Assembly (NCBI GenBank): GCA_039193195.1
Contig: JBCCWS010000003.1
Coordinates: 124,001 to 188,000, forward strand
Reading direction: 5' to 3'
Source: Pseudomonadota bacterium
GTDB taxonomy: Bacteria > Pseudomonadota > Gammaproteobacteria > Steroidobacterales > JBCBZW01
Length of the DNA stretch: 64,000 nt
In this document: piece after piece, positions 28,450 to 31,154 of the stretch
Layout: each line of letters opens with the position of its first letter
How positions within the stretch are numbered: position 1 is the stretch's first letter
Made by a program: the position numbers and the translations under genes
The notes under the pieces: model-generated
Databases searched by the model: none
What the model was told of the DNA's origin: nothing
Seen by the model: only the letters and a program-made list of their open reading frames with translations

Positions 28450-29235
28450 ATGTTCACGCTCGCCTCAATTCACATCTACCCGCTGAAGGGAGGCCGCGGC
28501 CTGGCGCGCATCAGCACGGCCCTCGATCGTTTCGGCCCCGCGGGTGACCGACGCTGGATGTTGGTCGACCCCAACGGTCAATTCATCACCCAGCGCCAGC
28601 TGCCCGGCCTTGCCCGAGTGGACGCCGTACCGAGCGCGCGAGGCCTGAGCCTAGGCTACGGCGATGATGCGCTAGAGGTCGTGTTCCCCACCTCGGCGCC
28701 ACGCGACGTCGCTATCTGGGACGACACGGTCGGCGCTTGCGATGCGGGCGAGGAGGCGGCCGCGTGGTTAAGCGCACGCCTCGAGCGTCCCTTGCGCCTG
28801 GTGTATCTGCCCGATGACGCGCGACGACCGGTCGACCCGACCTACGCCAAGGACGGGGAAACCGTGAGCCTGGCCGACGGTTACCCCTTACTGCTCGTCT
28901 CGGCAGCGGCCCTCGACGAGCTCAACGCGCGCCTCGAAGCGCCCGTCGGCCTCGATCGTTTCCGACCCAACCTCGTGGTGGACGGCTGCGCTGCCCACGC
29001 GGAAGACGACTGGCGGCGCCTTCGCATCGGGGAGATGACGCTCACGGTCGCCAAGCCCTGCGACCGATGCACCGTACCCGCCTTCAACCAACGCACGGGT
29101 GAACGCCACCCCGAGCTCTTGCGCACCCTCGGTGCCTATCGACGAGGTGCAGATCGAAAGGTCTACTTCGGCCAGAACCTGCTCTACGCGGGCACGGGAA
29201 CGCTGCGCGTCGGCGACCAGGTAGAAGTCTTGTGA
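28450..29235 (+). CDS. MOSC-domain protein (molybdenum cofactor sulfurase-like)
   Basis: Predicted 261 aa. The N-terminal beta-barrel domain (HIYPLKGGRGLARISTALDRFG, then GDRRWMLVDPNGQFITQRQ) and the MOSC domain (FRPNLVVDG, then KPCDRCTVPAFNQRTG with the conserved Cys, and FGQNLLYAG) match YcbX/YiiM-like proteins that handle molybdenum-cofactor-bound sulfur and reduce N-hydroxylated compounds. Cytosolic. It overlaps the next gene by 4 bp (GTGA). Confidence 0.9.
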   Translation: MFTLASIHIYPLKGGRGLARISTALDRFGPAGDRRWMLVDPNGQFITQRQLPGLARVDAVPSARGLSLGYGDDALEVVFPTSAPRDVAIWDDTVGACDAGEEAAAWLSARLERPLRLVYLPDDARRPVDPTYAKDGETVSLADGYPLLLVSAAALDELNARLEAPVGLDRFRPNLVVDGCAAHAEDDWRRLRIGEMTLTVAKPCDRCTVPAFNQRTGERHPELLRTLGAYRRGADRKVYFGQNLLYAGTGTLRVGDQVEVL

Positions 29236-29642
29236 CCGCAGCCGACGCTGGTGTTCGCCCGATTATCCGTATCCTTTGGTTCAGTATCGGTGCAATCGCC
29301 CTCGCCTTGGGCGCCCTCGGCGTGCTGCTCCCCCTGTTGCCGACTACGCCGTTTGTGCTCCTCGCTGCGTACTGCTTCGCTCGCTCATCGCGTCGCTGCC
29401 ATCGCTGGCTGCTAGAGCACGCCCTGTTCGGCCCTCTGATCATCGATTGGCAACGCGAAGGCGCAATCTCACGCAGGGCGAAGGTGGCAGCTGCCGTATC
29501 CATGGCAGCGATCTTGATTCTATCGATTGTGTTAGGTGCGGCACCTGCCGTGCTCGCCATCCAGGCTGTCGTACTGAGCGCCAGCGCCACCTACGTCCTG
29601 AGCCGCCCTGAACCATCACGACGAGCTCATCAGCGAACCTAG
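29232..29642 (+). CDS. YbaN-family (DUF454) membrane protein
   Basis: Predicted 136 aa, GTG start overlapping the MOSC stop. Helices: about residues 12-45 (WFSIGAIALALGALGVLLPL, then PTTPFVLLAAYCFARSS) and two C-terminal ones (about 85-120). The motifs LPLLPTTPF, CFARSS and LLEHALFGPLI are the DUF454/YbaN hallmarks. Function unknown. Co-expressed with the MOSC gene. Confidence 0.9.
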   Translation: MTAADAGVRPIIRILWFSIGAIALALGALGVLLPLLPTTPFVLLAAYCFARSSRRCHRWLLEHALFGPLIIDWQREGAISRRAKVAAAVSMAAILILSIVLGAAPAVLAIQAVVLSASATYVLSRPEPSRRAHQRT

Positions 29643-29649
29643 CAAACAG

Positions 29650-30116
29650 CTAAGCGGACAGACGCTCGCGCGCAGCCCTGCGGTCGATCATGTAGTAGAG
29701 CACGCCACGCTGTCGGTGGCCGCGTCGGTCTGGGCGACAGCATCATCGAGGCTCAGGCCGCAAGGCTAACGCCCGTCCCACTCGACGGTGAAAGAGATGA
29801 GTGGCCACTGGTAGGCCTAGTGGGCCGCTTGGTAAATGAGGTGACGCTCAGCGAGTAGCACGGGCGCCATCGCGGCGTTGCATCGCTTGCCAATGGCGAT
29901 GCCATTGGCTGCGCGACGCGCCTTGCTGACGCTGCCCCTACGCAGACTGAGCGCTACCTCATTTACCAAGCGGCCCACTAGCCTGTCCCCTTTCCCCACA
30001 ATGCCTACCGCCTCTCTCGGATGGGTCATCGTCAGCGCATAGACCAAGTCTACCCGGGTGCGGGTGAGCCAGCCGAGCTGCTCGGTGCAGTAAGGCGCGC
30101 GATGGTAAGCGTGGAA
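29650..30116 (-). pseudogene. fragment of homocysteine S-methyltransferase gene, split by a palindromic element
   Basis: On the minus strand, codons from 30116 read FHAYHRAPYCTEQLGWLTRT and then VDLVYALTMTHPREAVGIV (to 29997), matching the middle of homocysteine S-methyltransferases (xDLVxALTMTxxxEAxGI). After the palindromic element the same frame resumes as AYQWPLISFTVEWDGR (the ISFTVExDGRL block) with a TAG at 29766-29768 in place of Leu, then LSLDDAVAQTDAATD. A frame change gives VLYYMIDRR (the YYMIN block). The 5' part and the zinc-binding Cys region are missing. So: element insertion, nonsense, frameshift and truncation. No functional product expected. Confidence 0.8.
29815..29985. mobile_element. 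near-palindromic 171-bp element (MITE- or REP-like)
   Basis: The outer 27-30 bp form inverted repeats: CTAGTGGGCCGCTTGGTAAA at the left and its complement at 29962-29981. The arms continue as looser complement (left GTAGCACGGGCGCCATCGCG, right GTAGGGGCAGCGTCAGC in reverse) to a central GCCAATGGC-GAT-GCCATTGGC at about 29890-29908. The whole can fold as a single long hairpin. It interrupts a methyltransferase pseudogene. The right outer flank reads GGGGACAGGCTAGT on the minus strand, reminiscent of REP elements moved by RAYT transposases. No transposase gene nearby; no clear target duplication. Confidence 0.75.
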
Positions 30117-30198: not shown

Positions 30199-30288
30199 CC
30201 CCTGAAGGCACATAACTTCTGGGGATAGCGAAACTGATCGTTTGCTATCCCTCCTGAGCGCTGCCCTTCGGTGGCGCTCTTCTGTTTT
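30199..30288 (+). promoter_or_regulatory. leader with three stem-loops ending in a terminator, upstream of GlcG-like gene
   Basis: Three hairpins follow each other: CCCCTGAAG/CTTCTGGGG (30199-30224), GGGATAGC.AAAC/GTTTGCTATCCC (30222-30251), and GAGCGCTGCC-CTTC-GGTGGCGCTC (30256-30279) followed by TTCTGTTTT. Hairpins 1 and 2 share GGG at 30222-30224 and cannot form together. The terminator-like third hairpin ends 29 nt before the ATG at 30318, leaving no space for a promoter in between. This is the layout of an attenuator or riboswitch, though it could be the end of an upstream small RNA. No known riboswitch class recognised. Confidence 0.55.
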
Positions 30289-30317
30289 CAAAATCAAGTA
30301 GTAAAAGGAAATACTCG

Positions 30318-31154
30318 ATGCAAAAGTCGATTTCCGCGATCCTCTCGGGTCTCGCGATCGGTACCCTAAGCTTGAGCGCCCACGCTACCTGCGATGCCCT
30401 GCCAGACCATGCAGCGCTTACTGCTGCATTGCAGGCCTCCGTGGCCCCGACCAGCGGAACGCCGAACGGTGGTTTTGATCTCAACATGTGGGCGAGCATC
30501 GTCGACCGTGACGGTATCGTCTGCGCAGTGGCGCGCAGCGGCGCTGACCGCGGTGACCAGTGGCCGGGCTCGCGCGTCATTTCCGCGCAGAAGGCCAACA
30601 CGGCGAACGCCTTCAGCCTGCCAGGTTTAGCGCTTTCCACCGCCAATCTGTGGGCTGCAACGCAGCCCGGCGGCAGCCTCTTTGGCCTGCAGTTCTCGAA
30701 TCCGGTCGATCCGCAGACGGCCTATGGCGGCGCCCGCGCCCTTGGCTTGAATACGGCTGACGTAGTGAACTACGGCAACGCGGACGATCCGATGGTGGGC
30801 TCACTGATTGGCGGTGTGAACGTCTTCGGCGGTGGTCTACCGCTGTACAACGAGGAAGGCACCTTGGTCGGTGCCATCGGGGTGAGCGGCGACACCTCGT
30901 GTGCCGACCACAACATCGCCTGGCGCACGCGCGATGCCCTGAGCCTGGACTTCGTACCGGGGGGCGTAGGTGATGCGAACGGCGTGTCCGCCGACAACAT
31001 CATCTTTGATCTGGACGCGGACGGCGCGAGCCCCAGTGGCTTCGGCCACCCGACCTGTGGCGGCCCCGGCGATGTGGATGACAACGGCAACCCCGACGAT
31101 GCCGAGGACACGGCAGCAGTCGTTGCGCAAACACCGATCGGCGTGAACCCCTAA
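30318..31154 (+). CDS. exported GlcG/HbpS-like heme-binding-family protein
   Basis: Predicted 278 aa; ATG at 30318 with AAGGA upstream; signal peptide (SAILSGLAIGTLSLSAHA). Residues about 30-210 show the GlcG/HbpS fold: WASIVDRDGIVCAVARSGAD, SRVISAQKANTANAFS, VFGGGLPLYNEEGTLVGAIG and VSGDTSCADHNIAWRTRDAL. Members bind heme or corrinoid-like ligands or act as extracellular redox sensors; the ligand here is not known. The C-terminal 60 residues hold Asp/Asn-rich, Ca-binding-like stretches (DLDADGASPSG, DVDDNGNPDDAED), unusual for the family. It sits behind an attenuator-like leader. Confidence 0.85.
   Translation: MQKSISAILSGLAIGTLSLSAHATCDALPDHAALTAALQASVAPTSGTPNGGFDLNMWASIVDRDGIVCAVARSGADRGDQWPGSRVISAQKANTANAFSLPGLALSTANLWAATQPGGSLFGLQFSNPVDPQTAYGGARALGLNTADVVNYGNADDPMVGSLIGGVNVFGGGLPLYNEEGTLVGAIGVSGDTSCADHNIAWRTRDALSLDFVPGGVGDANGVSADNIIFDLDADGASPSGFGHPTCGGPGDVDDNGNPDDAEDTAAVVAQTPIGVNP

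Follow-up and report, generated by a model that had tools for sequence, protein, structure and literature searches.

A 165-bp palindrome that interrupts a gene remnant in the 64,000-nt stretch of DNA analysed here (the window) is a genuine MITE insertion, most likely driven by IS630, and the decaying gene that it entered belongs to the homocysteine S-methyltransferase family. The whole explanation, by which the MITE would have been mobilised in trans by an IS630-type transposase into a CTAG site and thus landed in the methyltransferase-family gene, appears probable. A transposase encoded elsewhere, most likely that of an IS630 (Tc1/mariner-like) element, would excise the palindrome at its terminal inverted repeats and paste it into CTAG sites, where duplication of the central TA would leave CTAG on both sides of each copy. 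One such copy would have hit a CTAG in the methyltransferase-family gene, between an HbpS-like gene and DUF454/MOSC genes. Three parts of this account (IS630 as the driver of the TGGGCCGCTTGGTAAAT ends, the cut-and-paste mode, and insertion after decay had begun) are what we infer from the evidence below.

The element lies at positions 29817 to 29981 of the window (no strand; both CTAG copies are counted in) and belongs to a repeat family, hereafter family 1, whose ends read CTAG followed by TGGGCCGCTTGGTAAAT. It is a near-perfect palindrome. Its 35-nt terminal inverted repeats, at 29817 to 29851 (left arm, plus strand) and 29947 to 29981 (right arm, minus strand), are 94% complementary, and the target copies of CTAG are at 29817 to 29820 and 29978 to 29981 (no strand). 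An inner core hairpin (AAGGCG..CCAATGGC/GCCATTGG..AACGCCG), located at approximately 29870 to 29925 on the minus strand, is common to palindromic elements with other ends in other genera. The methyltransferase-family remnant, also on the minus strand, is divided into a 5′ block (…TEQLGWLTRTRVDLVYALTMTHPREAVGIV; 29994 to 30101) and a 3′ block (29680 to 29800). When the minus strand is read in frame 0, …TEQLGWLTRTRVDLVYALTMTHPREAVGIV ends at 29997, a 15-nt spacer (GGGAAAGGGGACAGG) extends to 29982, and the element runs from 29981 to 29817, with translation through it meeting a TAG within its last three bases. On the 3′ side of the element come GCCTACCAGTGGCCACTC and, from 29798, ISFTVEWDGR, an in-frame TAG stop (29766 to 29768), and PCGLSLDDAVAQTDAATDS; past the stop, YYMID is read in a different frame. 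The original prediction thus described correctly the two blocks flanking the palindrome, the stop that follows ISFTVEWDGR, and the change of frame ahead of YYMI.

The neighborhood consists of a MOSC-domain gene (28450 to 29235; PF03476 and PF03473) and a DUF454 gene (29232 to 29642; PF04304, 132 bits) on one side of the remnant and an HbpS-like gene (30318 to 31154; PF03928, 52 bits) on the other; all three are on the plus strand and are syntenic in a same-genus genome, G001. Two hairpins can be seen by eye at ~30220 to 30290, between the remnant and the HbpS-like gene. The first is GGGATAGC…GCTATCCC; the second, GAGCGCTGCC…GGTGGCGCTC then TTCTGTTTT, looks terminator-like.

G001 supplied the intact relative of the remnant. 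Raw window DNA from each side of the element matched one G001 gene (E values of 2e-13 and 2e-8), and a 94–amino acid query built from the remnant pieces had matches in 5 genomes besides its own (n = 59; E values from 8.9e-25 to 1.1e-8). The protein match, which the original prediction had named as a point on which it could fail, is therefore significant. In G001, the match is an intact 324-codon frame (L082:1063-2037; 324 amino acids) with no insert. It belongs to PF02574 (105.2 bits versus a cut-off of 22) and is flanked as in the window, by an HbpS-like gene on one side and DUF454 and MOSC genes on the other. The raw DNA alignment of the window and G001 consists of four collinear blocks: the HbpS-side block (85% identity over 536 nt), the two remnant blocks (74% over 106 nt and 69% over 121 nt), and the DUF454/MOSC-side block (75% over 514 nt). 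Between the aligned blocks, the window has ~65 nt in place of ~600 in G001 and, at the second such interval, ~65 nt in place of ~323; most of the gene start and end has thus been lost. Relative to G001, the remnant lacks ~540 nt on the 5′ side and ~260 nt on the 3′ side and carries in addition the stop and small frame changes. Such large losses, together with the stop and frame changes, make it a pseudogene.

The window remnant itself had no PF02574 match, and a whole-genome search with this profile returned only two other genes (on contigs C1 and C14); a 45–amino acid remnant piece matched no Pfam family. The sequence that is left is too degraded to be recognised by a profile, and family membership rests on the orthologue in relatives. 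Judged by this orthologue, which is whole, insert-free, and set in the same gene neighborhood, the remnant is that of a homocysteine S-methyltransferase–family gene split by an inserted palindrome, as had been predicted. The "mmuM-like" label holds at the level of the family (PF02574) but not at the equivalog level: the G001 gene scores far below the NCBIfam equivalog cut-offs (42.8 versus 215 bits for NF007020 and 51.2 versus 453 bits for NF006396). The name mmuM is accordingly unsupported for this gene.

The two blocks had also been said to share a frame. Their frames do agree, but not because the insertion was cleanly in frame. The net gain from the insert is 161 nt, and G001 differs by another 4 nt at 12 to 16 nt past the insertion point as aligned; since 161 + 4 = 165 restores the frame, the agreement is a coincidence. 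The idea that the whole CTAG…CTAG unit was inserted without duplication, so that a length of 165 nt, a multiple of three, would account for the common frame, was dropped because GGCCTACCAGTGG, past the insertion point, is in register with G001 when one CTAG is kept and, as worked out by hand, out of register when it is not.

The prediction had further taken the remnant to date the insertion to a gene that was once functional or already decaying. The evidence leans, short of proof, to a late insertion into a gene already in decay, which is probably the likelier order of events. The alternative, in which a functional gene was inactivated by the insertion and acquired its other lesions later, is the less likely of the two and yet has an appreciable chance of being correct. 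Compared to G001, the remnant differs 36 times at codon positions 1 and 2 and 30 times at position 3 (70 codons); the corresponding ratio for the DUF454 gene is 39:67 (126 codons). The two patterns differ with a Fisher P value of 0.027, obtained from a small sample and one control gene, and the substitution pattern of the remnant looks relaxed relative to DUF454. The remnant nevertheless keeps some third-position excess (30 of 66 differences); a large part of its divergence therefore arose under selection, as expected had the insertion come first. Against that order, the window copy is among the least diverged from the consensus of its family (3 of 165 sites off, with a range of 2 to 13 in the 17 copies of its size class), and the gene shows the two large deletions, the stop codon, and the minor frame changes described above.

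The element belongs to a populous family. The end sequence of family 1 was found at 107 sites (55 + 52) in its own genome when up to 3 mismatches over 25 nt were allowed, while the same search with a reversed control pattern returned 0 sites; the assembly (G000; 6.71 Mb in 113 contigs) may lack some repeats. Among 100 listed end sites of these 107, 64 form 32 inward pairs 102 to 270 bp apart, the commonest lengths being exactly 165 (n = 9) and 270 (n = 6). The other 36 are unpaired, in some cases owing to a degenerate partner end or to the end of a contig, and none of the plus-oriented ends in this list has its nearest minus-oriented partner at 271 to 6000 bp. CTAG starts 89 of the 100 listed ends, a proportion biased upward since the search pattern contains CTAG; the other 11 deviate at any of the four positions. 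Family 1 copies sit between unrelated sequences in the genome. The original prediction had counted such a finding as a refutation; the element does behave this way, but this is expected of a mobile element, and the clause was misframed.

Outside the own genome, G001 has copies of its own (at least 20 matches, with 14 of 78 candidates scored, and 12 end sites). End sites occur in 7 of the 396 genomes of the order overall; beyond the genus, end variants such as CTAGTGGGCCGCTTGATAAAT were found in 5 of the 396, all from one other genus. In a survey of the class (n = 276), matches with at most 1 mismatch were confined to the own genome and one of those five. The element is short and, like the copies read, has no transposase gene; its terminal inverted repeats are conserved, it occupies many unrelated sites, the orthologous sites are element-free, and its target is duplicated. 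On these sequence features, the 165-bp palindrome is a MITE (a non-autonomous DNA transposon). It is a MITE of known kind; a literature search made by terms, not by sequence, found no description of the TGGGCCGCTTGGTAAAT end sequence.

To define the insertion site, we searched G001 with 18 queries, each a pair of flanks around one CTAG. This gave 13 matches, of which 9 were aligned and the 4 weakest (L116 to L119) left out. No element end (up to 7 mismatches in 24) was present at the 9 aligned G001 loci or at the methyltransferase locus L082. At the 9 loci, the G001 junction reads CTAG in three cases; TTAG, GTAG, CTAC, CTTAG, and CTGA in one case each; and CT plus a long gap in one. The methyltransferase site of the window corresponds to ACGG in G001, and keeping one CTAG gives an alignment that is gap-free across the junction. 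Altogether, 5 of the 10 junctions are gap-free (for L020, on an alignment from a single side), 4 have gaps of 1 to 3 nt at or within 3 nt of the site, and 1 has the long gap. Since G001 is only ~71 to 91% identical over the junction stretches, an exact CTAG is not expected everywhere. With CTAG at both ends of the element versus a single CTAG-like site in G001 (exactly CTAG in 3 of 10, diverged in the others), the simplest reading is that insertion occurred at CTAG and that one copy was duplicated. The empty site that the original prediction hoped to find in relatives thus exists and defines the duplication of CTAG as 2 or 4 bp: because CTAG is the same on both strands, TA (2-bp) and CTAG (4-bp) duplications leave identical sequence.

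At one junction (L005; G000 C32:6508), the CTAG of the element appears by eye to give the upstream frame its TAG stop (AAG GGC TAG); the same place in G001 (L107) reads AAG GGC TGA. Insertion at stop codons may spare genes.

The own genome contains a single DDE_3 match, and it was the only one of six genomes searched to have any, G001 having none. This gene encodes an IS630 transposase (NF033545; 116 bits for the C-terminal piece versus a cut-off of 100, and 62.5 bits for the N-terminal piece), contains a stop in frame, and is truncated by a family 1 MITE copy; no intact IS630 transposase was found in the 113 contigs of the assembly. The left end of the IS630 element, CTAG followed by TGTGCTGAGTTAGAAGTTCG, agrees at 19 of 20 positions with the ends of a second CTAG-bounded palindrome family (~163 bp, ends TGTCCTGAGTTRGAAGTTCGTTGATGA, 95 end sites, 48 + 47; for example, G000 C5:80917-81079 and L092 to L106). 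Four plasmid relatives of the IS630 gene, taken among the 12 matches listed out of 797 matching records, are 74 to 77% identical to it and annotated as IS630 family transposase. Their elements start with CTAG followed by TGTCCTGAGTTA (two), TGTCATGAGTTA, or TATCGTGAGTTA, and all four finish, on the opposite side, with the inverted partner of TAGTGTCCTGAGTTA (0 to 2 mismatches over 15 nt), the right end overlapping the last codons of the gene. Since the ends of these IS630 elements match those of the second family, the second family carries IS630 ends.

Families 1 and 2 are close neighbors. At five junctions read, they share a CTAG or stand at most 8 bp apart. Seven family 1/family 2 neighbors were seen by eye versus ~0.45 expected with uniform use of CTAG sites by the second family, a rough figure for which the CTAG number was extrapolated from the window and near neighbors were counted as hits. 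In a Pseudomonadales metagenome-assembled genome (L088:70-115; JANQKS010000118.1), a family 2 end and a family 1 start share one CTAG. The family 1 ends themselves resemble IS630 element ends only in CTAGTG. With the same target, the CTAGTG boundary, and adjacency to the second family, family 1 would most simply be of IS630 type. According to its title, a 1991 study by Tenzen and Ohtsubo reportedly found that an IS630-associated composite transposon prefers the TA in 5′-CTAG-3′. A published account has IS630 and ISY100 inserting at TA with duplication of TA (PMC2170065). CTAG, the preferred site of IS630 according to the 1991 title, is also the target of our element; unlike these insertion sequences, the window element encodes no transposase, and its end sequence was not found on an IS630.

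The search for a driver with matching ends was extended in several directions. Ends shared with an IS630 insertion sequence were found for the second family and not for family 1. No transposase was present between TGGGCCGCTTGGTAAAT ends in the own-genome copies read, which included 8 one-ended copies and 15 stretches inside unpaired ends, with frames judged by eye (in the latter set, L159 was not anchored, and L162 and L171 ran into contig ends). Nor was a transposase with TGGGCCGCTTGGTAAAT ends found at the sites in the 7 of 396 genomes of the order, where sites outside the own genus were read for 300 nt each way and partner ends sought over 3 kb, or in the 2 of 276 genomes of the class. The TGGGCCGCTTGGTAAAT ends had no match in plasmids (35-nt query) or phages, and viral contigs contained one exact 17-mer of these ends with no element. 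Two other candidate drivers were rejected: a DDE_5 (IS701) transposase occurs in neither of the two genomes examined (G000 and G001), and the three PF00665 matches in G000 (IS481-like, rve) have no family 1 end (up to 5 mismatches over 18 nt) in their ~3-kb loci.

It is also conceivable, though with a small probability in our estimate, that the MITE belongs with transposases of a different family, one that makes a 4-bp duplication at CTAG (IS5-type, as for MITEPsy1 of Pseudomonas syringae). The failure to find an IS630 with TGGGCCGCTTGGTAAAT ends leaves room for such a driver, as does the fact that duplications of 2 and 4 bp read the same in our sequence. MITEPsy1 is a short MITE that inserts at CTAG or YTAA, also inside genes, with a 4-nt duplication, and is attributed to ISPsy2 ("IS5?") (PMC3189936). 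It differs in being 100 nt long and in its 18-nt ends, printed as GGAAGGTCTGAAAAAGCC, which are unlike those of family 1 (PMC3189936). The CTAG/TG boundary and the adjoining second family with IS630 ends point instead to IS630, and so does the same palindrome architecture in a G021 element that ends in CTAG/TGTCCTG (L062).

An IS630-type driver has a parallel in the RUP elements of Streptococcus pneumoniae. RUP is 107 bp long, has 108 copies, terminal repeats, and TA-containing targets, and is proposed to be moved in trans by the IS630-Spn1 transposase, with insertions in other insertion sequences (PMC2229807); the window family likewise has a copy that cuts an IS630 gene. The window family differs from RUP in its ends, in its long arms, and in an element that forms a near-perfect palindrome from end to end around an inner core; no matching IS630 was found for it. 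REP palindromes, associated with RAYT, are similarly high-copy and scattered over the genome. Correia/NEMIS elements have a different host, Neisseria, and their ends differ from those of the window family. They are similar in being short (~107 and 155 bp) and in having terminal repeats, TA at the termini, target duplication, and size classes that differ by an internal block (PMC2229807). REPs, by contrast, are 20 to 40 bp long and tagged at one end with GTAG or CGTC (PMC3733652), whereas the window family is 102 to 270 bp long with symmetric CTAG ends and element-free orthologous sites.

The fold of the element is exceptionally stable (−110.5 kcal/mol, z = −11.3; 0 of 200 shuffles were equally stable). 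An Rfam search of the window returned nothing at gathering score; four sub-threshold matches to microRNA precursor models (including 43 versus 268 bits and 31.8 versus 137 bits) are generic, as any long hairpin might give. That the palindrome is a resident regulatory or RNA element (a terminator or small RNA) and not an insertion is highly improbable: the stable fold and the compensatory changes in the inner hairpins of related elements would suit it, but it is missing from the orthologous locus, the empty site contradicting residence, is carried at dozens of unrelated places, and scores far under the cut-offs of the microRNA precursor models with no Rfam gathering score.

The MITE may have a modular structure. 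Its middle (~56 to 110) matches elements in G019, G021, G025, and G049 that are, at the loci read, palindromes bounded by CTAG or near-CTAG with unrelated ends. A core pattern, which fixes the outermost letters (AAGGC…AACGCCG), found 17 cores in 13 loci; 14 of these, from eight genomes in four genera (G000 and G001; G021, G112, and G319; G025 and G049; G019), were aligned, and the structure was named by hand from the core of the window element. Standard pairs form in 89.5% of the cells of this alignment. Both sides had changed in 11 of 19 pairs, each of them belonging to one of the inner two helices, a number reached by 1 of 500 shuffles; none of 500 attained the 34 cells with such changes. 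When the partner was slid by 1 to 3 columns, the proportion of paired cells fell to 31 to 47%. Speaking against the pairing, one pair is broken in 7 of the 14 cores and others in 3 to 5. These numbers are to be read with the outer helix fixed by selection of the cores, the loci found by core similarity, and the shuffles ignoring relatedness; DNA-level correction of a palindrome could also yield paired changes. The different ends and the compensatory changes were not imposed by core selection.

We put forward only tentatively, and as something we rate unlikely on present evidence, the reading in which a compensatorily kept core (AAGGCG…AATGG/CCATT…CAACGCCG) common to CTAG-bounded families with unrelated ends would itself, rather than the ends, be the real unit of inheritance. 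It spans eight genomes and four genera (four families) of one order. If true, the core would persist while transposase-specific ends are exchanged around it, and it could act as a functional RNA, a host-factor site, or an enhancer of transposition. The usual explanation of MITEs is that they are relics left by deletion within one parent insertion sequence. This picture does not predict a conserved core without the ends, and a covarying core common to families with different ends is thus worth following. At the level of the locus, an odd palindrome in a dead gene has become a defined, countable mobile family with a CTAG target, dozens of copies, size classes, and element-free sites, whose effect on gene loss in the lineage becomes measurable.

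Individual copies of the family show further features. In G319 (L127:1501-1539), a minimal 39-bp palindrome consists of two bare end sequences head to head with no interior. A third repeat (CCTGCTTTATTCATGAGGTGTGGCGTTGAGCCCC…) stands directly beside family 1 elements at three places, in the right flanks of L010 and L022 and the left flank of L030. Close to a contig end, the two flanks of L019 (G000 C28:80268-80417) repeat each other in inverted orientation, which is probably an assembly fold-back. In L053, a frame with a very cysteine-rich tail (DQCDCDCENAKCCEEKTCECCKDECCCK, then a stop), metallothionein-like by eye, ends just before position 1501, ahead of a 102-bp copy.
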